From a virus, in the IMG/VR virus record IMGVR_UViG_3300031759_000047, positions 1 through 45,183 of that record: 45,183 nucleotides of DNA. One strand, 5' to 3'. This document shows, piece after piece, positions 12,948 through 26,884 of this stretch. The translations under genes were made by a program, and so were the position numbers. The notes beneath the pieces are model-generated. The model did not search any database. It was not told the DNA's origin and saw only the letters and a program-made list of their open reading frames with translations. Position 1 is the first letter of the stretch; each line of letters starts with the position of its first letter.

Positions 12948-13607
12948 ATGTCTGGATTTTCTTTCATCGACCTGTTCGCCGGCATCGGGAGCCTCCGCAG
13001 GGGCTTCGAGGGTGCCGGCGGCCGCTGCGTCTACACCTCGGAGTGGAACCCCAAGTCCCAGCAGACCTACAGGGCTAACTTCCCGCACGACGGGCACGGC
13101 ATCGACGGCGACATCACCAAGGTGGACGCCGCTGCCGTGCCCGACCACGACGTGCTCCTGGCGGGCTTCTTCTGCCAGCCGTTCTCCATCGCGGGGGTCT
13201 CCGCCCGGAACAGCCTGGGCAGGGCCCACGGCTTCGCCTGCGAGGCGCAGGGCACCCTCTTCTTCGACGTGGCCCGCATTCTCAGGGAGAAGAGGCCCGC
13301 CGCGTTCCTGCTCGAGAACGTCCGCAACCTTGTGTCCCACGACGGGGGTAACACGTTCCGCGTCATCCGCGGCGTCCTCGAGGAGGAGCTCGGCTACCGC
13401 GTCAGCTGGCGCGTCATCAACTCGCGGTCGTGGGTCCCCCAGAGCCGCAACCGGGTCTTCATCGCGGGCTTCAGGGACCACGGCCACTTCTCCCTAGGCA
13501 CCCTGCTGGCGCCGCGTCCCGCACGCCGACCGCCGGGCGTTCTACAAGGCCGCCCGGGAGGGCACCAATGCCGAGTATCGGGCCGCGATGGAGAACGTCC
13601 TGACTAA
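12948..13607 (+). CDS. C5-cytosine DNA methyltransferase, C-terminally truncated
   Basis: 219 aa against a usual 300-400. Motif [16 protein letters not shown] (6-20), motif [10 protein letters not shown] with catalytic Cys76, motif [10 protein letters not shown] (Glu123) and motif [15 protein letters not shown] (165-175) are present. The Pro normally before the catalytic Cys is Phe. The target-recognition domain and motifs IX-X are absent. After ~residue 182 the frame turns Arg/Pro-rich, while another frame encodes [20 protein letters not shown] (then further sensible residues) up to 13624. This suggests a frameshift or a deletion fusion. It transfers methyl groups to cytosine C5 if active; lack of a recognition domain makes sequence-specific activity doubtful. 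Confidence 0.8.
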
Positions 13608-17993: not shown

Positions 17994-18214
17994 CCCACGG
18001 CTTCAAGACGCGCCGGGGGGTCAAGACCTGCGACCCCTGCGGCCGGGACGAGGAGGGCCGCTGCGCGTCCTCCGGGACGACCCAGCCGGCCTGCTCGGAC
18101 GCGCGCTGCCCCTGGAAAGACCCGGACGGCACGCCCGAGGCCATGAGTGCCCGCGTCGCGGAGCTCGAGAGCAGGTTCAACGTCTTCGGCTACGGTCCGG
18201 GGATCTGGCGATGA
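17990..18214 (+). CDS. Cys-rich small protein, 74 aa
   Basis: GTG at 17990 overlaps the exonuclease stop; its own stop overlaps the PLP-enzyme start. It contains CDPCGRDEEGRC and CSDARCPW, four to five cysteines suited to bind zinc, then a helical segment ARVAELESRFNVFGYG. Function unknown. Confidence 0.6.
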   Translation: MTHGFKTRRGVKTCDPCGRDEEGRCASSGTTQPACSDARCPWKDPDGTPEAMSARVAELESRFNVFGYGPGIWR

Positions 18215-19173
18215 CCTGGGAGGAAGAGGCCAAGAGGCTGACCCCCTGGGAGGAGCGCGGGGGCGTGCTGTTCAAGCGCGAGGACCTGTTCGCGCCGCTG
18301 TGCAAGAACGGCCCCAACGGGGCCAAGTTCCGCCAGCTGCTGCACCTGTTCGCGCGCCACCGGGGCAACGCCACCCACGTGATGACCGCGGCCAGCGTGC
18401 TCTCGCCGCAGCACAGCATGACAGCGGCGGTGGCCCACCACTACGGGCTGCCGAGTCTCCACATCATCGGGGCCACCACGCCCGAGAAGGCGGTGGCCAA
18501 CCACGTCAACGTCCGGGTGGCCTCCCGCTTCGGGGCCAAGTTCGAGGCGATCAAGGTGGCGTACAACCCGGAGCTCCAGAGGGCACTGGAGCGCCGCCGC
18601 CGGCCCGACAGCTTCGTGGTGCCCTACGGCATCACCACCGCCCCTGACTGCTCGGAGGAGGACCTGAGGGCCTTCCACGAGGTGGGCGGGGTCCAGGTCA
18701 AGAACCTGCCCGAGCAGGTGGAGACACTGATCGTCCCGGCGGGCAGCTGCAACACTCTCACCAGCGTGATCTACGGACTGGTCCGGCACGGCCACGGGAA
18801 CCTCCGGGAGCTCGTATCCGTCGGCATCGGGCCCGACAAGGTGGCCTGGGTCCAGGAGCGCCTGACCCGGCTGGGCGTGCGGCCACCGCTGCCCTTCAAG
18901 TGGAACCGCCGAGTGTCCCTGCACGAGAGTGGGTTCGCGGCCTACGGGGACCGGATGCCGGAAGAGTACTACGGCCTGCAAGGGCACCCTACTTATGAGG
19001 GAAAAATCCTTCGCTGGATGAAGAGGCACGGCGTCCTCCCTCCCCGCGACAAGGGCCTGGGCTTCTGGATCGTGGCCGGCGAGATGAGCGAGAAGGCCGT
19101 GGAGAAGAAGTACCCGGTCGAGGGCCTCAACGACAGCATCAAGGACCTGTTCAGCGTGCAGTTAGCACCATAA
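18211..19173 (+). CDS. Fold-type II PLP-dependent enzyme (D-Cys desulfhydrase/ACC deaminase-like)
   Basis: 320 aa. It begins with the substrate-channel segment FKREDLFAP and then NGAKFRQL, where Lys39 is the expected PLP Schiff-base lysine. SPQHSMTAAVAHHYGL corresponds to the stretch facing the cofactor. PAGSCNTLTSVIYGL corresponds to the phosphate-binding loop. Enzymes of this fold catalyse beta-elimination, replacement or deamination of amino acids. It sits just before the thymidine-modification genes, where other phages carry PLP enzymes that reshape an amino acid attached to 5-hmdU. That role is inferred. The Asn usual in the S-x-N motif is His here, so the substrate may be unusual. Confidence 0.75.
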   Translation: MTWEEEAKRLTPWEERGGVLFKREDLFAPLCKNGPNGAKFRQLLHLFARHRGNATHVMTAASVLSPQHSMTAAVAHHYGLPSLHIIGATTPEKAVANHVNVRVASRFGAKFEAIKVAYNPELQRALERRRRPDSFVVPYGITTAPDCSEEDLRAFHEVGGVQVKNLPEQVETLIVPAGSCNTLTSVIYGLVRHGHGNLRELVSVGIGPDKVAWVQERLTRLGVRPPLPFKWNRRVSLHESGFAAYGDRMPEEYYGLQGHPTYEGKILRWMKRHGVLPPRDKGLGFWIVAGEMSEKAVEKKYPVEGLNDSIKDLFSVQLAP

Positions 19174-19183
19174 GGAGAGAACT

Positions 19184-19561
19184 ATGAAGAAGAAACTCTT
19201 GATCGGTCTCGCGCTCCTCGCCCTAGTGGGGTGCGACCGCGATGCCGACGTGGCCCAGAAGAACCTAGCCCAGGACGCAGACAACTTCAAGATCCCCAGG
19301 CGCATCGCCTTCATCAACGGGATCACGGACAAGTACCTCCTGGAGATCACGGGCTTCTGCGCGTTCAAGGCCTCCGATGAGACCAAGAACGTGCTCAACG
19401 TCATCTGCAAGGTCGACGGAGGCTACAAGAAGCACTCCATCGGCCTCTCGGACAACGTGACGTTCGTGAGCGAGCAGCTGGCCCCGCGGGACGTCAGCAC
19501 CTCGCTCTACCACGTGACGTTCAAGCCGGCCACGCTGGTCCCCGACGTCGAGCTGCGGTAG
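19184..19561 (+). CDS. Beta-sandwich lipoprotein
   Basis: 125 aa with a lipoprotein signal (MKKKLLIGLALLALVGC; lipobox LVGC, Cys17). It continues DRDADVAQKNLAQDADNFKI, RIAFINGITDKYLLEITGFC and HSIGLSDNVTFVSEQL. This is the pattern of the phage beta-sandwich lipoprotein family found in many siphoviruses. AGGAG precedes the ATG. It would be exported and lipidated in an infected Gram-negative cell. Some phage lipoproteins block superinfection, but the role of this family is not settled. Confidence 0.8.
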   Translation: MKKKLLIGLALLALVGCDRDADVAQKNLAQDADNFKIPRRIAFINGITDKYLLEITGFCAFKASDETKNVLNVICKVDGGYKKHSIGLSDNVTFVSEQLAPRDVSTSLYHVTFKPATLVPDVELR

Positions 19562-19569
19562 GCGCGCAG

Positions 19570-19845
19570 ATGAAGGCCGGTACGCACGTCCGCACGCCCG
19601 ACGGCCGCGAGTGGACGGTCGTCTACCACGGTCCCGACGGCTACGGGGTCGTGGAGGGACGCCGGACCCTGACCGAGGACGAGCTCAGGAACATACACCT
19701 GGGCGGCCCGTTCTCCAGGGAGGCACTGGCTGAGGCCGTCAAGGCTACCCACATGCTGCGGGACTCCGTCTCGCCGACCATGGACGAGCGCATGTGGCCC
19801 GGAATGACGCTGATCGGCGAAGAGTTCGAGAGGATCGCGGAATGA
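19570..19845 (+). CDS. Hypothetical protein, 91 aa
   Basis: ATG at 19570. An N-terminal small beta unit (GTHVRTPDGREWTVVYHGPD) is followed by a helical half with REALAEAVKATHMLRDSVS and TLIGEEFERIAE. The stop overlaps the next start as ATGA, tying it to the amino acid:DNA transferase-like gene. No family recognised. Confidence 0.6.
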   Translation: MKAGTHVRTPDGREWTVVYHGPDGYGVVEGRRTLTEDELRNIHLGGPFSREALAEAVKATHMLRDSVSPTMDERMWPGMTLIGEEFERIAE

Positions 19846-20861
19846 AGGACTACCGCACCCCCGAGCACCGCGGCGAGTACTTCGCCGCGCTCTACGAGAC
19901 CAACCTCCGGCACGGCACCATGCCGGGGCTCGTCTACCTCTACATGCCGGCGCTGGCGCACGCCCTGGGCTGGGACGAAAAGACCAAGCTGTGGTTCGCG
20001 TTCCTCAACGGGATGACGCAGAACCCGCTGACTAGCCTGCGCCTTCTCGAGCAGCTGCCCGAGCCGCCCGAGAACAAGATAGCCCTAGCGGTCTTCAAGC
20101 AGTGGTTCGACGCGGAGTGGCCCCGACTTCAATACGACACCGATCGGCGCTACGCCAAGAAGGAGACCTGCGAGGCCATCAAGAGCTACTGCTGGGCGGC
20201 GGCCGCTTTCGGAGACTCTCAGACGACTCCCCAGGTCGACATGCTGAGCCTTAGGTCTTGGGAGGCCATTTGGGGCTTCGTGACTTCCTCCTTCCGCAGC
20301 TTCGGCCGGCTCTCGGCCTTCAGCTACCTGGAGTACGTGCGAATCATGGGCCACGGCTGCGAGCCCGATACCCTACTATTCTCCGACAAGTCGGGCAGCA
20401 AGAGCCACCGCAACGGCATGCTGTTCCTGACAGGCCTGGACGAGCTGGTGAACGACAAGCGGACCGGCCGGGGCCCCGTGGCCTACGAGAACTTCGGCAA
20501 GATGTGTGTATGGCTCCAAGAACGCGCCGACATCTGGCAGGCCGCCTTCAACGAGATGGAGGCGCGGAAGGGCTCGACGCTGCGGGCCACCAACTTCACC
20601 TTCGAGAGCCAGCTGTGCCAGTTCAAAAACTCCTTCTTCGGCCGGCGCTACCCCGGGGTCTACGCAGACATGGCCTGGGAGCGCCTCCAGTGGTACAAGA
20701 CCAACGTGGGGCAGGACAGGAACTGCCGCCTGATCGCCGACATCTACCACTCCCTGCCCGACTGGCTCCAGTACGGAAATGACCGCTTGACCGTCAGGCA
20801 GAGAGCGGCTATATTCCCCCGCACGGGCGTGCCCTACCGAGCAGAGCACTTCCTAGAATAG
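19842..20861 (+). CDS. Amino acid:DNA transferase-like protein (thymidine hypermodification)
   Basis: 339 aa, ATG at 19842. The sequence resembles the amino acid:DNA transferase family of phages such as M6 and ViI: YFAALYETNLRHGTMPGLVY near the start, LWFAFLNGMTQNPLTSLRLL, RSWEAIWGFVTSSFRSFGRL, and WYKTNVGQDRNCRLIADIYH near the end. Known members attach Gly or Ser to phosphorylated 5-hydroxymethyluracil in DNA. In this window it lies with a 5-hmdU kinase candidate, a dUMP hydroxymethylase candidate and a PLP enzyme, which supports the role. Which amino acid is used cannot be told from the sequence. Confidence 0.75.
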   Translation: MKDYRTPEHRGEYFAALYETNLRHGTMPGLVYLYMPALAHALGWDEKTKLWFAFLNGMTQNPLTSLRLLEQLPEPPENKIALAVFKQWFDAEWPRLQYDTDRRYAKKETCEAIKSYCWAAAAFGDSQTTPQVDMLSLRSWEAIWGFVTSSFRSFGRLSAFSYLEYVRIMGHGCEPDTLLFSDKSGSKSHRNGMLFLTGLDELVNDKRTGRGPVAYENFGKMCVWLQERADIWQAAFNEMEARKGSTLRATNFTFESQLCQFKNSFFGRRYPGVYADMAWERLQWYKTNVGQDRNCRLIADIYHSLPDWLQYGNDRLTVRQRAAIFPRTGVPYRAEHFLE

Positions 20862-20874
20862 CGAGATAGCACTC

Positions 20875-21414
20875 ATGGAAATCTACACCCAGGCCCTCAT
20901 ATTCGCGGTCCGCGCCCACGGGGACCAGAAGCGCAAGTACACCAACGATCCCTACGTCGTCCACCCCATCCGCGTGGCCGAGATACTGCGGGAGGCGAAG
21001 GCCCCAGAGGTCATAGTCTCCGCCGCGCTCCTGCACGACACGGTGGAGGACACGAAGACGACTTACCAGGACCTCGTCATGGAGTTCGGTCCGGCCATGG
21101 CAGACCTCGTCATGGAGGTCACGGACCCCAGCCGGCCCGAGGACGGCAACCGCGCCGCGCGCAAGGCCATCGACAGGGAGCACCTGGCCCGGGCCAGCGT
21201 GTACGGGAAGACCATCAAGCTGGCGGACCTCATCGACAACACCGCCAGCATCGTGAGGTACGACCCCGACTTCGCCAGGGTCTACCTCGCCGAGAAGAGG
21301 CTACTCCTGCAGGAGGCGCTGAGGCCCGTCGGGGCGTTCCATGACTGGCAGAGTGTCCACGGCAGGCTCTACGCGAAGGCACTGGCCCAGATGGAGACTC
21401 TATGCCTAAGCTGA
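20875..21414 (+). CDS. MESH1/SpoT-type (p)ppGpp hydrolase (HD domain)
   Basis: 179 aa. It matches the hydrolase domain of RelA/SpoT and MESH1: FAVRAHGDQKRKYTNDPYVV, HPIRVAEIL, and the HD signature ALLHDTVEDT (His54-Asp55, Glu58-Asp59), then GKTIKLADLIDNTASI. These enzymes remove the 3' pyrophosphate from (p)ppGpp using Mn2+. No synthetase domain is present. It overlaps the P-loop kinase gene by 13 bases in the modification cluster. A role in reversing starvation signalling or small-alarmone-synthetase defence is plausible inference; an alternative is a modified-nucleotide pyrophosphohydrolase. Confidence 0.85.
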   Translation: MEIYTQALIFAVRAHGDQKRKYTNDPYVVHPIRVAEILREAKAPEVIVSAALLHDTVEDTKTTYQDLVMEFGPAMADLVMEVTDPSRPEDGNRAARKAIDREHLARASVYGKTIKLADLIDNTASIVRYDPDFARVYLAEKRLLLQEALRPVGAFHDWQSVHGRLYAKALAQMETLCLS

Positions 21415-21986
21415 TCATCAACCTGCGCGGCACGTCCGGCTCCGGCAAGACCACGGTGGTCCGCCGGCTCATGGGGCTGGGCGAGGTCGAGAATATGAGG
21501 ACAACCGACGGGAAGATCGCAGGGGTTCGCCTAGAGGTTCCACGCTGGAGCCACGCCGTGTTCTTCATCGGCAAGTACGACAGCGTCTGCGGCGGGATGG
21601 ACACCGTGCCCACGCAGGCCGACTGCTCCACCCTGATCCATCGGGCATACGATCATGGCCACGTAGTCTGCGAGGGCCTGCTAGCCTCCGGGGTCGGGCC
21701 CAAGGCTACCCTGCCCGCGGCGTGCATCGCGGCGGCCGGCCCCAACGCCTGGTTCCTCTGCCTGGACACGCCGCTAGAGGTTTGCATCGAGCGCGTCAAG
21801 CAGCGCCGGGCCGCCCGGGGCGACGACCGCCCGTTCAACCCGGCCAACACCCAGGCCAAGTGGGAGCAGACGCGCCGGGCCTACGAGCTCCTGGAGGAGG
21901 GCGGAGCCAACGTGCGCTGGCTGCCCTACGAGACGGCCTACGAGAAGGTCCGCGCCATTCTGGAGAAGGTTGATGCCGCGGACTGA
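21402..21986 (+). CDS. P-loop kinase, probable 5-hmdU DNA kinase
   Basis: 194 aa. Walker A is RGTSGSGKTTVVRRLM (GxxxxGKT at 10-17). WFLCLDTPLEVCIERVKQRR gives the strand and basic lid of a nucleotide-kinase-like fold, and ARGDDRPFNPANTQAKWEQT follows. In phages with hypermodified thymidine a P-loop kinase phosphorylates 5-hydroxymethyl-dU within DNA to prepare it for amino acid attachment. Close linkage with the helical-domain gene at 22254, the transferase-like gene and the TS homologue supports that call. A generic small-molecule or polynucleotide kinase remains possible. Confidence 0.72.
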   Translation: MPKLIINLRGTSGSGKTTVVRRLMGLGEVENMRTTDGKIAGVRLEVPRWSHAVFFIGKYDSVCGGMDTVPTQADCSTLIHRAYDHGHVVCEGLLASGVGPKATLPAACIAAAGPNAWFLCLDTPLEVCIERVKQRRAARGDDRPFNPANTQAKWEQTRRAYELLEEGGANVRWLPYETAYEKVRAILEKVDAAD

Positions 21987-22257
21987 ACCGAGCCTCTGGA
22001 AGGCCAAGCACAGGGTCTCTAAAGAGGACGACGGTCGGGCCTTGACCTACTTCTGCGACGACAAGCGCCACCTGGTGTGCCAGCCGTATAGCCTGGAGAA
22101 CCTCCACGTCATGGCCCAGCGCCTCGGCCTCAAGCGCCACTGGTTCCACAGGGACCACTACGACATCCCGGTCAAGCGCCGGGCTGAGATCGAGAACCTG
22201 TGCATCCACCTGACGGCGCGGGACATCGTGCGCATCTGCCGGGGAGGCAAGGAGTGA
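21973..22257 (+). CDS. DUF4031-like protein
   Basis: 94 aa, ATG at 21973 (an in-frame TTG lies one codon upstream). The hallmark is ENLHVMAQRLGLKRHWFHRD, then HYDIPVKRRAEI, as in small phage/bacterial DUF4031 proteins of unknown function. It overlaps both neighbours, and the downstream gene starts within its stop (GTGA). Presence between kinase and helical-domain genes may be operonic convenience or a link to modification. Confidence 0.75.
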   Translation: MPRTEPSLWKAKHRVSKEDDGRALTYFCDDKRHLVCQPYSLENLHVMAQRLGLKRHWFHRDHYDIPVKRRAEIENLCIHLTARDIVRICRGGKE

Positions 22258-23129
22258 GCAGCGACCTGCGCGGCCTGGTGGCGTTCGTCCGGGAACGGGA
22301 AACGATTCGCTTGAAGAGGCACCTCGGAGAGCTCGCGCCCTGGACGGACGACCCGATCCTGGCCAAGTACCGTTTCTGCAACGTGAGGCGCGGAGACGAC
22401 CGAGTCTCGCAATGGCTGCTGAAGAAGTACTACCCGAGGTTTGATCCTCGGGGAGACCTCTGGTTCGCGGCCGCCGTGGCACGCCTGATCAATTGGCCGC
22501 CGACCCTGGCGTGGCTCATGGAGAGGTCCGTGACCTGCGACATGGTCGACGCCTACGATGCCCATGACTTCTCCAGAGAACTCGAGAAGTACCACCATGA
22601 GAACCCCGGCAAGACTTACACCGGGGCATACATGCTCTACGCCGGGGGCAGGCAGGCGCGGTTCAAGGGGATGGCCAAGGCCGACTTCATCGCGCACCAC
22701 CTGCTCGCGGGGCTGACCGTCAGCCGCGACATAATCAGGCTGGCCGTCTCGAGCAGGAGCGTGGAGGCCACCGTGACGGCGCTCCAGCACTCCTTCGGTA
22801 TAAGCTCGTTCATGGCGGGTCAGGTCGCGGCTGACCTGACCTACCTTCCTCTCCAGCTGGGTCAGGCTCGAGATCTCTACACCTGGGCCCCCCGCGGCCC
22901 TGGGTCCTTGCGCGGCCTCAACCGCCTCCACGGTCGGCCGCTGAACAACCAGTGGGACCAGGACCACTTCAACGATGCGTTGAAAAAGGTTAACTGGGCA
23001 ATTGGCCCCGGCTTGGGCCTCACCCTGCACGACGTCCAGAACGTCCTGTGCGAGTGGGACAAGTACGAGAGGGTGCGGCTCGGGCAGGGCGTGCCCCGGT
23101 CGCAGTACAGGCCCGAGACGGCATATTAA
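22254..23129 (+). CDS. HhH protein of the 5-hmdU DNA kinase/aGPT-pyrophosphorylase family
   Basis: 291 aa from GTG at 22254. The family signature KYRFCNVRRGDDRVSQWLL is at 38-56, an all-helical core follows, and a DNA-glycosylase-like helix-hairpin-helix segment FGISSFMAGQVAADLTY covers 181-197, then PRGPGSLRGLNRL at 213-225. These features define the domain found with 5-hmdU DNA kinases and in alpha-glutamyl/putrescinyl-thymine pyrophosphorylases. Those enzymes activate or displace the phosphorylated base adduct in DNA. Here it is encoded separately from the P-loop kinase at 21402. It probably recognises 5-hmdU (or its phosphate) in DNA. Confidence 0.8.
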   Translation: MSSDLRGLVAFVRERETIRLKRHLGELAPWTDDPILAKYRFCNVRRGDDRVSQWLLKKYYPRFDPRGDLWFAAAVARLINWPPTLAWLMERSVTCDMVDAYDAHDFSRELEKYHHENPGKTYTGAYMLYAGGRQARFKGMAKADFIAHHLLAGLTVSRDIIRLAVSSRSVEATVTALQHSFGISSFMAGQVAADLTYLPLQLGQARDLYTWAPRGPGSLRGLNRLHGRPLNNQWDQDHFNDALKKVNWAIGPGLGLTLHDVQNVLCEWDKYERVRLGQGVPRSQYRPETAY

Positions 23130-23151
23130 GCAGCCAGGAGAGGAGAAGAAG

Positions 23152-24168
23152 ATGACCTACGCACTGACGGCCCGCAACCCCAACGAGGCGTTCCCCATGA
23201 CCGTGAGGATGCTGAGGGACCACGGGGTGCGGCTGCCGAGCCGCAACGGCGACTGCCTGGAGTTCCCGGACGTGGTCAGCGTGACCTTCACGCATCCCCT
23301 GGAGCGGGTGCTGACCAATCCGCTGCGCCGGATCAACCCGTTCCTGCACTTCTTCGAGCCTCTGTGGATCCTCGCCGGCCGGCGCGACGTCGGCTTCCTC
23401 GCGCAGTTTGCCAAGAACATGACGAACTACAGCGATGATGGCGAGAATTTTGCCGCGGCCTACGGTCACCGGATCAGGCACGTGCCCTCTTCTTATGAGG
23501 GAGACCCAGACATCGATCAGATTTACGAGGCCGTAGTTCGTCTGAAGGCGGACCCGGATGACCGCCGCGTGGTTCTCATGATCCGACAGCCTCTAGACAT
23601 CGGCTACACCGGCAAAGACGCGGCCTGCAACATCGCGGCCAGCCTGAAGATCCGCGGCGGCCGGCTCAACATGCACGTCATGAACCGCAGCAACGACGCG
23701 GTCTGGGGCGGCCCGGCCGGCGGAACCAACCACCCGCAGTTCACTGTCCTGCTGGAGTTCATGGCCGGGATGATCGGCTGCGAGGTGGGGCGCTACACGA
23801 TCACCACCGACAGCATGCACGCCTACGTCAACCCCCAGTGGGAGAAACTGAGGGACACGCCGGCCTACGCAGACCCCTACCAGTCGGCCTCCCACGACTA
23901 CCGACCGTTCCCCATGATGGAAGAGCCCGTCCTCTTCTGCACGGACCTGACGGCCTTCTTCGAGACGTACGACGACGGCCGTATGCGCCCCTACTCCAGC
24001 GTCTACTTCCGCCGGGTGGTCCTGCCCATGTGGGAGACCTTCCTCTCCTACAAGGCGCGCGACGGCCGGGAGCGCGAGCTCCTGGAGAGGGTGGCGGCCG
24101 CGGACTGGCAGGACGCCGTCAGCCAGTGGTTCGACGGCATCGAGCGCCTCCAGAGGCCCTTCTCGTGA
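23152..24168 (+). CDS. Thymidylate synthase family protein, probable dUMP hydroxymethylase
   Basis: 338 aa; GGAGAGGAGAAGAAG precedes ATG 23152. TS features: the folate/nucleotide region with RRINPFLHFFEPLWILAGR (57-75), GHRIRH, DRRVVLMIRQPLDI (137-150), the catalytic Cys159 in KDAACNIA, HVMNRSNDAVWGG, and TTDSMHAYV. The usual PCH around the nucleophile and the N of the LPFN motif differ (AACN, GGTNHPQF). This fits phage dUMP hydroxymethylases that add a hydroxymethyl instead of a methyl group, making 5-hm-dUMP. Location inside the modification cluster strengthens this over plain thymidylate synthase. Confidence 0.82.
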   Translation: MTYALTARNPNEAFPMTVRMLRDHGVRLPSRNGDCLEFPDVVSVTFTHPLERVLTNPLRRINPFLHFFEPLWILAGRRDVGFLAQFAKNMTNYSDDGENFAAAYGHRIRHVPSSYEGDPDIDQIYEAVVRLKADPDDRRVVLMIRQPLDIGYTGKDAACNIAASLKIRGGRLNMHVMNRSNDAVWGGPAGGTNHPQFTVLLEFMAGMIGCEVGRYTITTDSMHAYVNPQWEKLRDTPAYADPYQSASHDYRPFPMMEEPVLFCTDLTAFFETYDDGRMRPYSSVYFRRVVLPMWETFLSYKARDGRERELLERVAAADWQDAVSQWFDGIERLQRPFS

Positions 24169-24704
24169 GTGTCCTGCGGGCGGTGTCCTGGGCCTACCGC
24201 AAGGCCCGGACGCTGCGCTTTCACACTCACTTCTGCACCCGGCAGGAGACCATCGGCCACCACTCCCACGGCGTGGCGGTCATCGTGTCCCTGGTCTACC
24301 CGGACGCCAGCGCCGACCTGCTCAGGGCCGCGGTCCTGCACGACCTGGGAGAGGGCGAGTGGGGCGACATGCCGGGCCACACCAAGCGCGAGCTCGGCAT
24401 CCGGGAGGCCGTAGCCGTCCTGGAGGAGCGAGAGATGCGCAGGAACGGCGTGGAGATGCCGACGCTGAACGCCGAAGAGCACCGCAGGCTCAAGTTCGCC
24501 GACAACGCCCACGGCGCGCTCTTCTCCATGGAGGAGCTCTCTAGGGGCAACCGGGAGCTCCTGGGGCCCTTCCGCAACTACGTGGAGTGGATGGAGAAAG
24601 AGCCGATGCACCTGCTAGGCGAGCAGGAGCTCTTCGAGATGATCAGGCGACGGTTCTTCAGGCATTCTACCGAAGGTGTGAGAGATGAAGTCTTCGAGTT
24701 CTGA
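24165..24704 (+). CDS. HD-domain 5'-deoxynucleotidase (YfbR-like)
   Basis: 179 aa from GTG at 24165 (GTGA overlap with the hydroxymethylase stop). HD residues are in ETIGHHSHGVAVIVSLVYPD (His35 region) and RAAVLHDLGEGEWGDMPGHT (His59-Asp60, Glu63), with a later Asp in LKFADNAHG. YfbR-type enzymes remove the 5' phosphate from dNMPs. Coupled to the hydroxymethylase, it may hydrolyse dTMP and so keep thymine out of phage DNA, as dTMPases do in other 5-hmdU phages. Substrate is inferred. Confidence 0.8.
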   Translation: MSVLRAVSWAYRKARTLRFHTHFCTRQETIGHHSHGVAVIVSLVYPDASADLLRAAVLHDLGEGEWGDMPGHTKRELGIREAVAVLEEREMRRNGVEMPTLNAEEHRRLKFADNAHGALFSMEELSRGNRELLGPFRNYVEWMEKEPMHLLGEQELFEMIRRRFFRHSTEGVRDEVFEF

Positions 24705-24945
24705 GGCGGACAAGCGCCAGGTCGGCGGCGGCCATTACAAGGACGTCCCCGAGCACCTCCAGCACTGGAACGTGGTCGCGGCCCTGGGCTGGGATTATTT
24801 CATCGGCACGGCCACCAAGTACATCTGGCGGGCCGGCAAGAAGGACGACCCCGTCCAGGAGCTCGAGAAAGCGGTGCACTACCTCCAGAAGAAGATCGAG
24901 CTCCTCAGGGCCGAGCGCGCGGCCGCGGAGAAGCAAGTTGGCTGA
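24685..24945 (+). CDS. DUF3310 (SaV-like) protein
   Basis: 86 aa. The family pattern is clear: GGGHYKD, then HWNVVAALGWDYFIGTATKY (and IWRAGKKDDP), then ELEKAVHYLQKKIELL. DUF3310 proteins are common next to phage replication genes, with unknown function. It overlaps the HD gene by 20 bases and the polymerase by 8. Confidence 0.85.
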   Translation: MKSSSSEADKRQVGGGHYKDVPEHLQHWNVVAALGWDYFIGTATKYIWRAGKKDDPVQELEKAVHYLQKKIELLRAERAAAEKQVG

Positions 24946-26884
24946 CGGAGAGGTCGCCTTTTTAGACACGGAGAGCTACGCCAACGCGGCGCTCTTCATG
25001 TGCCAGACCGAGGGCGGCCGCCTGTTCAAGGCCTGGGTGGAGGGCCCGAACGGTCCGGCGGCGGACTACGTCCGGGCGGTCATGGCCTCGGGCTACACGT
25101 TCGTGACCTTCAACGGCATCAACTACGACATGCCGGTGGTCAGCGCCATGATCGACGGCCGGGGCCCGCACGAGATCAAGCACCTCTCCAACCGCATCAT
25201 CGAGGGCGGCCTGATGCCCTGGGAGGCCGCCGACGAGTTTCGCCTGCCGCCAAACCTGGCGGGCGTGGACCACATCGACCTCATCGGGGTCAGGCCGCCC
25301 AACGCCGGCCTCAAGATGGCCGCGGCCCGGATGGGCTCCCCGCACCTGGAGGAGAACCCTATCGACCACCGCTCGGAAATCGCCCCGGCGCAGTACCCCG
25401 GCGCCGAGCGGTACTGCATGAGCGACCTCCGCAACACCCGGATGCTGTTCGGCCGCTGCGAGCAGCCGCTCCTGCTGCGCTGCCAGATGAGCCGCGAGTA
25501 CGGCGTGGACCTGCGGAGCAAGAGCGACGCCCAGGTCGCCGAGCAGGTGTTCGTCAAGAAACTGGGCCTCAAGAGGAAGTGGGGCGAGAACGCCCGCATA
25601 CCTCCGGTGGTGCGCTACCGCGCGCCGGCCTGGGCCCAAAGTTTCCAGAGCCCGGGCCTGCGCGCGCTGGTGGCGCGGCTGGAGGACACGATCTTCCACG
25701 TCCACCAGGGCAGCGGCCACGTGGCCATGCCCTCCTGGCTGGAGGCGGCCTCCCCGGAGTCGCGCCTGACCTCCCGGACCGGCGTCTTCCAGATGGGCGT
25801 GGGCGGCCTGCACAGCACCCACGACAAGAAGGTCTGCCACGTCGCCGGGCCGGACTGGCGCGTCACGGACGTGGACTGGGACTCCTACTACCCCACGCTG
25901 ATCGTCAACGCCGACCCCGAGATACTGCCGCCCCACCTGGGCGAGGCGTTCATCACCGAGTACGACAACATTCGGCGCATCCGCCTGGAGGCCAAGCGGG
26001 TCAAGGACGTCTCCAAGGCCGACAGCCTGCGCATCGCGGTCAACGGCACCTTCGGCAAGCTGATGTCGCGCTGGTCGCCGCTGTACGCCCCGGGCCTGGG
26101 CCTGTACACTACCCTGACCGGGCAGCTGGGGCTGCTGGGCGCGGTCTACGAGGTCCTGGAGCCCGCCGGCTGCTCCATACTGAGCGCCAACACCGACGGC
26201 ATCGTCATCGGGCACCCGGCGGGGGTGGACGCCGCGGCGCTGATGGCGGAGTACGCCGCGGTCATGAGCGAGGGCGGCCGCGCGCCCTACGGCGTGGAGG
26301 CCACCTCCTACCGCACCATCGCGATGAAGGACGTCAACAACTACATCGCGGTCAAGGCCAAGGATCGCTCGGTCAAGGCCAAGGGGCTGTACGCCCCGCT
26401 GGACAAGATGATGAAGAACCCCACCCTGCCGGTCTGCTCGGAGGCGGTGGGCAAGTGGCTGGCCCACGGCGTCCCCTTCGAGAGGACGCTGGCCGAGGCC
26501 CACCAGCGGCGCTACCTGCCCGACTGGCTGGCCGCGCGGCGCGTCAACGGCGGGGGCGTCCAGGGAGAGAAGACGGTGGGCAGCCTGGTCCGCTGGTACT
26601 TATCAACCGACCCCGGACTTCCGCCCTTGACTTATGCGCTGAATGGCAATAGAGTACCCAAGACCGAGGGCGTCAGGGCCTGCATGATCTTCGATCCTGC
26701 GGCCCCGTTGCCGGCGGACCTAGACACTCTAGCATATAACAAGGAATGCATCAGGATAGCCAAGGACCTGGGCTGCTCCCAGTACCTGTCAGAGGAACAG
26801 CTGGTACTCGTCGCGCCGCCCCCGAAGGCCGGCCGCAAGAGGAAGGCCGTCACCGAGTCCCCAGAGAAGGAAGCGTCAGCATGA
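24938..26884 (+). CDS. B-family DNA polymerase with 3'-5' exonuclease
   Basis: 648 aa from TTG at 24938. Exonuclease motifs are AFLDTES (Asp and Glu near residues 9-11), FVTFNGINYDMPVV (~65-78) and YCMSDLRNT (~160). Polymerase motifs are A, DVDWDSYYPTLIVN (~310), B, RIAVNGTFGKL (~365), and C, SANTDGIVI with the DTD-type pair (~417). The order and spacing are those of a compact family B enzyme, shorter than cellular members. It replicates the phage genome, and its nucleotide pocket must accept 5-hm-dUTP if the modification model is right. The C-terminus is Lys/Glu-rich. Confidence 0.85.
   Translation: MADGEVAFLDTESYANAALFMCQTEGGRLFKAWVEGPNGPAADYVRAVMASGYTFVTFNGINYDMPVVSAMIDGRGPHEIKHLSNRIIEGGLMPWEAADEFRLPPNLAGVDHIDLIGVRPPNAGLKMAAARMGSPHLEENPIDHRSEIAPAQYPGAERYCMSDLRNTRMLFGRCEQPLLLRCQMSREYGVDLRSKSDAQVAEQVFVKKLGLKRKWGENARIPPVVRYRAPAWAQSFQSPGLRALVARLEDTIFHVHQGSGHVAMPSWLEAASPESRLTSRTGVFQMGVGGLHSTHDKKVCHVAGPDWRVTDVDWDSYYPTLIVNADPEILPPHLGEAFITEYDNIRRIRLEAKRVKDVSKADSLRIAVNGTFGKLMSRWSPLYAPGLGLYTTLTGQLGLLGAVYEVLEPAGCSILSANTDGIVIGHPAGVDAAALMAEYAAVMSEGGRAPYGVEATSYRTIAMKDVNNYIAVKAKDRSVKAKGLYAPLDKMMKNPTLPVCSEAVGKWLAHGVPFERTLAEAHQRRYLPDWLAARRVNGGGVQGEKTVGSLVRWYLSTDPGLPPLTYALNGNRVPKTEGVRACMIFDPAAPLPADLDTLAYNKECIRIAKDLGCSQYLSEEQLVLVAPPPKAGRKRKAVTESPEKEASA

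Follow-up and report, generated by a model that had tools for sequence, protein, structure and literature searches.

Which base does a phage put into its DNA when its hypermodification genes are ordered as in one known phage and finished by enzymes resembling those of another? This question is raised by a gene cassette at 18211-24704 of the IMG/VR virus record IMGVR_UViG_3300031759_000047, of which positions 1 to 45,183 (45,183 nucleotides, hereafter the window) were analysed. The window is a phage fragment, with genes for a terminase large subunit, tail fibre, baseplate wedge, endolysin, primase and DNA polymerase. It overlaps at >99.97% identity with three viral contigs, the longest of which (63,733 bases; the 63.7-kb contig) adds 18.5 kb of tightly packed genes, all on one strand, on the terminase side. 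A first-pass annotation, made from the letters alone, had placed in the cassette six co-directional enzyme genes, for a thymidylate synthase (TS) homologue, a P-loop kinase, a helical protein (HEL), an amino acid:DNA transferase (ADDT), a fold-type II pyridoxal phosphate (PLP) enzyme and a YfbR-like nucleotidase, and had read them as a thymidine hypermodification pathway. The interval was translated and then scanned with Pfam, PHROGs and NCBIfam. Hidden Markov model, PHROG and pairwise matches to proteins of the Pseudomonas phage M6 and the Salmonella phage ViI bore out all six enzymes at or near the annotated positions, and the predicted pathway is well supported by the enzyme families and the operon context; the list of six was incomplete, since four more genes (19184, 19570, 20875 and 21973) lie inside the interval. 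We propose that the cassette probably follows ViI-type chemistry to a hypermodified thymidine derived from an amino acid, namely 5-(2-aminoethoxy)methyl-deoxyuridine (5-NeOmdU) or a close side-chain-linked analogue.

The identity of the base turns on the transferase and the PLP enzyme. The protein encoded at 19842 matched PF18724 (E=5e-13, 49.8 bits against a cut-off of 26.2) and fell into phrog_3271 together with ViI Vi01_199; phrog_6364, the family of the M6 ADDT, was unmatched. A profile of the window's group of ADDTs recognised the ViI transferase (4e-41) and gave no match to the transferases of M6, PaMx11, phiW-14, Pam3 and RHph, and an M6-type ADDT profile matched all of these and missed that of ViI. 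An unrelated fold, which the first-pass annotation had named as grounds for giving up its proposal, was checked by structure prediction of this protein and was not what we found; for the 22254 protein, named there too, the PF18723 match (E=1e-41) takes the place of a model. Indeed, the model (predicted local distance difference test, pLDDT, 95) had as its best PDB match the 5-phosphomethyl-dU (5-PmdU) glycinyltransferase of the Pseudomonas phage PaMx11 (Z 17.1, 3.8 A over 254 residues); the next family came at Z 9.3, the weaker matches being queuine salvage enzymes and HhH DNA glycosylases. The PaMx11 enzyme (gp46; PDB 8z2m/8z2n) thus has the fold of the 19842 protein but belongs to the M6-type ADDT clade. 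Judged by its profile and family matches, the 19842 protein is an ADDT of the ViI clade.

The PLP protein pointed in the same direction. It was assigned to phrog_3650 (E=1e-66), the family of ViI Vi01_182, and matched the M6 PLP family, phrog_7093, only weakly (2.6e-7); its identity to the ViI protein is 30% over 355 columns (E=4e-48). Moreover, the corresponding profile of the window's group matched ViI at 1e-75 and found nothing in phiW-14 or PaMx11. The score against Pfam PALP was under the cut-off (18.1 versus 35 bits), as was likewise that of ViI's own PLP protein (30.7 bits). The AlphaFold model (pLDDT 89) superposed on D-cysteine desulfhydrase with Z 21.6 and 3.3 A over 267 residues. 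On this model the protein belongs to the fold-type II PLP enzymes, with K39 as the predicted Schiff-base lysine. A phiW-14-like route was rejected in view of the M6-type ADDT of that phage and the missing PLP-profile match there.

Homology suggests the following order of events. The TS homologue would hydroxymethylate deoxyuridine monophosphate (dUMP), so that 5-hydroxymethyl-deoxyuridine (5-hmdU) enters DNA, where the P-loop kinase and the helical protein would jointly phosphorylate it. The ADDT would then swap the phosphate for an amino acid side chain, most likely the serine hydroxyl, and leave the alpha-amine and the carboxylate free. Finally, the PLP enzyme would form an aldimine with the free amine and decarboxylate the adduct to 5-NeOmdU or a close analogue; the YfbR-like protein may adjust the nucleotide pool. 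PLP requires a free primary amine, and the presence of a PLP enzyme without an isomerase thus points to attachment of the amino acid through its side chain. In work by Lee from 2022, ViI is reported to use serine, and M6 is said to use glycine via its amine and to need isomerization by a radical S-adenosylmethionine (SAM) enzyme before the PLP enzyme can decarboxylate. With attachment through the side chain, as in ViI, neither a radical SAM nor a flavin enzyme is expected. The modification likely protects the phage DNA against host nucleases.

The genes for the earlier steps resemble those of M6. The TS homologue matched PF00303 (Thymidylat_synt, E=6e-18) and is 37% identical to M6 gp58 (E=6e-55); its best match among solved structures was a CMP 5-hydroxymethylase (4e-19), with true TS scoring lower (4e-10). 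Its active-site motif is DAACN, where M6 has DLPCN and ViI has DMICN; 53 of the 54 sequences in the alignment retain Cys159 and Asn193, and the other has a gap there. By this alignment, a DAACN-type active site with the nucleophilic Cys and the substrate Asn retained is typical for this phage family. In TS and in the T4 dCMP hydroxymethylase, an Asn at the substrate position is associated with uracil and an Asp with cytosine; dUMP is thus the predicted substrate, and the protein a predicted TS-type pyrimidine hydroxymethylase. The kinase is similar to M6 gp54 (30%, E=3e-13) and ViI Vi01_061 (E=1e-9) and scored under the cut-off of HMUDK PF18748 (23.9 versus 27 bits), and HEL is 34% identical to M6 gp55 over 313 positions (E=1e-40). 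A P-loop and helical pair with the predicted function of a 5-hmdU DNA kinase is thus present by homology. PHROGs (phrog_800) calls the kinase family, including M6 gp54, "terminase small subunit", as does GenBank for the M6 and ViI proteins, which looks like a propagated misannotation. The YfbR-like protein matched Pam3_53 (E=2e-9) and M6 gp59 (E=5e-4), which hold the same operon position.

We then compared the cassette with characterized systems. Its genes are co-directional, five of the nine junctions within the interval overlap by 4-14 bases, and they run PLP, VG64-type, orphan open reading frame (ORF), ADDT, HD, kinase, DUF4031, HEL, TS and YfbR, then DUF3310 and DNA polymerase. The M6/YuA phages of Pseudomonas (Mesyanzhinovviridae), which make 5-(2-aminoethyl)-deoxyuridine (5-NedU), have the same kinase-HEL-TS-YfbR-DUF3310-DNA polymerase order, with 30-37% identity between M6 and the window for kinase, HEL and TS. 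What M6 has and the window was not found to have is the radical SAM enzyme, the M6-type ADDT, a PLP protein of M6's own family, and Nmad5. The gene list of the M6-like phage SN1, comprising a hydroxymethylase, Nmad5, aGPT-Pplase1, kinase, rSAM, PLP enzyme and aGPT-Pplase2 (PMC9476957), agrees with our reading of the M6 cassette. Pam3 has its kinase, helical protein, TS, HD nucleotidase and DNA polymerase ordered as in M6 and the window, and the Rhizobium phage RHph_TM26 is similar. ViI, whose DNA contains 5-(2-aminoethoxy)methyl-dU (PMC11721090; PMC6449724), has homologues of five of the window's enzymes (Vi01_060c TS, 061c kinase, 130c HMUDK_hel, 199 ADDT, 182 PLP), at identities of ~24-32%; its genes are scattered over a 157-kb genome, unlike the M6-like operon order seen here. 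In the Glutamicibacter phage Montesquieu, a ViI-type ADDT adjoins a ViI-type PLP gene (34-36% identity) with HEL and TS close by, but the two kinases are of another type, similar to the Ploopntkinase3 protein of Heath, and the gene order differs. In mycobacteriophage Heath (L003:1768-3465), a queuine tRNA-ribosyltransferase gene has an ADDT and a P-loop kinase 3 as neighbours, and neither a TS nor a helical protein is annotated in the vicinity. Uncultivated viral contigs such as L025, L026, L028, L036 and L054 have the same PLP-ADDT-kinase-HEL-TS-YfbR-DUF3310-DNA polymerase set, with 43-55% identity for PLP, and lack the SpoT-like HD and DUF4031 insertions of the window. The cassette is thus best read as two known parts recombined, an operon of the M6 type carrying finishing enzymes of the ViI type, in a group of uncultivated phages that is widespread. 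Viral metagenomes were reportedly shown by Lee in 2022 to contain such genes in combinatorial permutations, and the cassette is therefore not a new kind of system.

Accordingly, several features that the first-pass annotation had taken as unusual turned out to be shared. The kinase and helical domain do lie on separate genes, but M6, Pam3 and RHph_TM26 are arranged alike. The PLP enzyme does have the desulfhydrase/deaminase fold, as the D-cysteine desulfhydrase match indicates, but fold-II PLP enzymes occur in both M6 and ViI. The altered TS active site is seen in the DAACN motif, but its Cys and Asn are those of the M6 and ViI homologues. Within the reach of PF04055, PF01266 and tblastn with known proteins, the statement that the window holds no radical SAM or flavin enzyme stood, and could be extended to the 63.7-kb contig. 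The suggestion that an unusual enzyme set might yield a different final base is weak, since ADDT and PLP fall into ViI families and the missing enzymes are those expected to be missing from a ViI-type pathway.

In a further step, related viral loci were surveyed. In a profile search, relatives of the PLP protein turned up in at least 280 viral contigs, and the best 80 of these were examined; the 64 loci with both PLP and TS formed the co-occurrence set. PLP, ADDT, kinase and TS were present in 64/64 loci, HEL in 61, DUF3310 in 55 and YfbR in 53, and DNA polymerase comes after the cassette in most relatives. The next recurrent family, a protein of 162 amino acids (43/64 loci), matched none of the tailoring enzymes searched for, and clustering of the ORFs of the 64 loci gave no further recognisable tailoring gene that recurs between PLP and TS. 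A search of the genome collection for the ADDT family returned only two actinobacterial contigs from metagenome-assembled genomes. Among 64 non-redundant ViI-type ADDTs, 50 were near a ViI-type PLP gene and none was near a radical SAM, flavin or M6-type PLP gene, an association that is partly ascertainment because many loci were fetched through PLP. The 70 M6-type ADDTs divided into 56 with one of these three kinds of gene nearby, 13 with none and one near a ViI-type PLP gene, in a locus (L066) that holds a ViI-type ADDT as well. When loci were fetched through HEL alone, 19 with a ViI-type ADDT had a ViI-type PLP gene and none had a radical SAM, flavin or M6-type PLP gene; 32 more showed no PLP, 25 of which have less than 5 kb of upstream sequence. 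Ten loci (L239, L241-L244, L249 and L253-L256) have an M6-type ADDT, two kinase copies and none of the tailoring enzymes searched for; this group possibly uses another finishing chemistry.

Some observations weigh against ViI-type chemistry with 5-NeOmdU or a close analogue as its product. The identities to the ViI proteins, 26% for ADDT and 30% for PLP, are too low to tell which amino acid is used. Among solved structures, the PLP fold comes nearest to deaminases and desulfhydrases, which catalyse eliminations and not decarboxylations, and some relatives of the cassette carry a ViI-type ADDT with no detectable ViI-type PLP gene. Furthermore, ViI has a second kinase, HMUD2 (Vi01_196), which is not known to be essential and gave no tblastn match in the window or the extra 18.5 kb; M6 is also a single-kinase phage.

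The distance of the transferase from that of ViI leaves room for a pathway of the same logic that attaches another side-chain-linked amino acid (threonine, homoserine, cysteine or a diamino acid) and ends in a decarboxylated base not yet described. Consistent with this, just 34 of 73 family-invariant ADDT residues were also found in ViI, a count that depends on the alignment used and in which some differences may be local misalignment. Yet the profiles of the window's group recognise the ADDT and PLP of ViI and those of no other characterized phage, and the sequence blocks GRLS and D..GS.S.RNG are common to the ADDTs of the window's group and of ViI, so that we consider another amino acid possible but unlikely. 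It is also rather unlikely that the transferase of the whole lineage uses such a non-serine amino acid, in which case a new decarboxylated base would be common to hundreds of uncultivated phage contigs and the relatives without PLP would carry its un-decarboxylated form.

A pathway that ends early, at 5-hmdU or at the un-decarboxylated adduct, with a PLP enzyme that has another role or is inactive here, would fit the mostly eliminating fold-II relatives and the contigs that share the backbone without a detectable ViI-type PLP gene. Indeed, a minority of the relatives appear to lack the gene: the ViI-type PLP profile found nothing anywhere in the contigs L189 (54.8 kb), L221 (43.3 kb), L236 (54.0 kb) and L240 (29.8 kb), whose completeness is unclear and in which the backbone and a ViI-type ADDT are present; the DNA of these phages may carry amino acid adducts that are not decarboxylated. 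However, the PLP gene of the window is intact, K39 was invariant in 52 relatives and is kept in ViI, Vibrio 207E48.1, Montesquieu, M6 and Pam3, and a Y-[ED]-x-K motif (Y262, E263, K265) is conserved from this phage to ViI and M6, which makes an early stop in the window's phage very unlikely.

We also considered glycine-based chemistry as in M6 and PaMx11, with the radical SAM or flavin enzyme located elsewhere or supplied by the host, a reading to which the M6-like backbone genes lend themselves. Across the 63.7-kb contig, radical SAM PF04055 gave no match at E<=10 and FAD oxidoreductase PF01266 gave none. Searches of the window and the extra 18.5 kb by tblastn gave nothing significant with the M6 gp53 and Pam3 radical SAM proteins and no match with the FAD protein of RHph_TM26. 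The flavin search consisted of PF01266 and this last protein, so a residual chance stays that a flavin enzyme of some unusual other family is encoded there. Negative results with PF00291 were set aside because at E<=1 this model fails to detect even the PLP gene of the window in the 63.7-kb contig. Together with an ADDT and a PLP enzyme that lie outside the M6 families, and with none of 64 ViI-type ADDTs accompanied by radical SAM or flavin genes, these results leave glycine chemistry hardly plausible. Equally improbable is an ordinary TS in an operon acting on nucleotides, with unmodified DNA, since in spite of the nucleotidase and HD hydrolase genes the closest solved TS relative is a 5-hydroxymethylase, the ADDT model resembles a glycinyltransferase that modifies DNA (Z 17), and five DNA-modification families are strictly linked, in 61 to 64 of 64 loci.

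Table 1. Genes of the cassette and its downstream neighbours in the window.
Feature	Position	Strand	Evidence
Fold-type II PLP enzyme, predicted decarboxylase of DNA-linked amino acid	18211..19173	+	phrog_3650, fold match, K39 predicted Schiff-base lysine
VG64-type lipobox protein, between PLP and ADDT genes, non-core	19184..19561	+	PF25682 E=4e-46
Small orphan ORF	19570-19845	+	
Amino acid:DNA transferase (aGPT-Pplase2/ADDT), ViI clade by sequence	19842..20861	+	PF18724, phrog_3271, model
SpoT/MESH1-like HD hydrolase, inserted, non-core	20875..21414	+	PF13328 E=1e-15; RelA/SpoT TIGR00691 HD part
P-loop kinase, predicted catalytic subunit of 5-hmdU DNA kinase	21402..21986	+	M6 gp54 similarity; Walker A GTSGSGKTT
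DUF4031 protein, inserted, non-core	21973..22257	+	PF13223 E=4e-12
5-hmdU DNA kinase helical domain protein (HEL, aGPT-Pplase1)	22254..23129	+	PF18723 E=1.4e-41
Thymidylate synthase homologue, predicted dUMP 5-hydroxymethylase	23152..24168	+	M6 gp58, PF00303; Cys159, Asn193
YfbR-like HD 5'-deoxynucleotidase, predicted nucleotide-pool accessory	24165..24704	+	PF12917 E=2.5e-7
DUF3310-type protein, conserved backbone-operon member	24685..24945	+	M6 gp61 47%, E=4e-15
DNA polymerase, downstream anchor of conserved order	24938..26884	+	phrog_1252 E=3e-116

The remaining genes in and around the cassette were also inspected (Table 1). Among the 80 loci fetched through PLP, the SpoT-like HD and DUF4031 insertions were confined to the three near-identical contigs that represent this phage. 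The VG64-type protein (Phage_VG64) carries the PHROGs label of a recombination directionality factor, and its DNA is ~72% identical to mycobacteriophage genes, a possible hint of an actinobacterial link of the phage. Upstream of the cassette, a DNA methyltransferase gene was found at 12948-13607 (phrog_116, E=6e-60), so that this phage may modify its DNA in a second way as well.

Taken as a recombination of an M6-type operon with ViI-type finishing enzymes, the cassette suggests that the conserved operon for the hydroxymethylation and kinase steps exchanges its finishing module, a transferase and the tailoring enzyme that matches it, in one piece. The matched sets would be an M6-type transferase with a radical SAM and a PLP enzyme, or with a flavin enzyme, and a ViI-type transferase with a PLP enzyme only. 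If this is true, the way in which the amino acid is attached to DNA would be predictable from the transferase clade, and for many uncultivated phages the base could be forecast from sequence.

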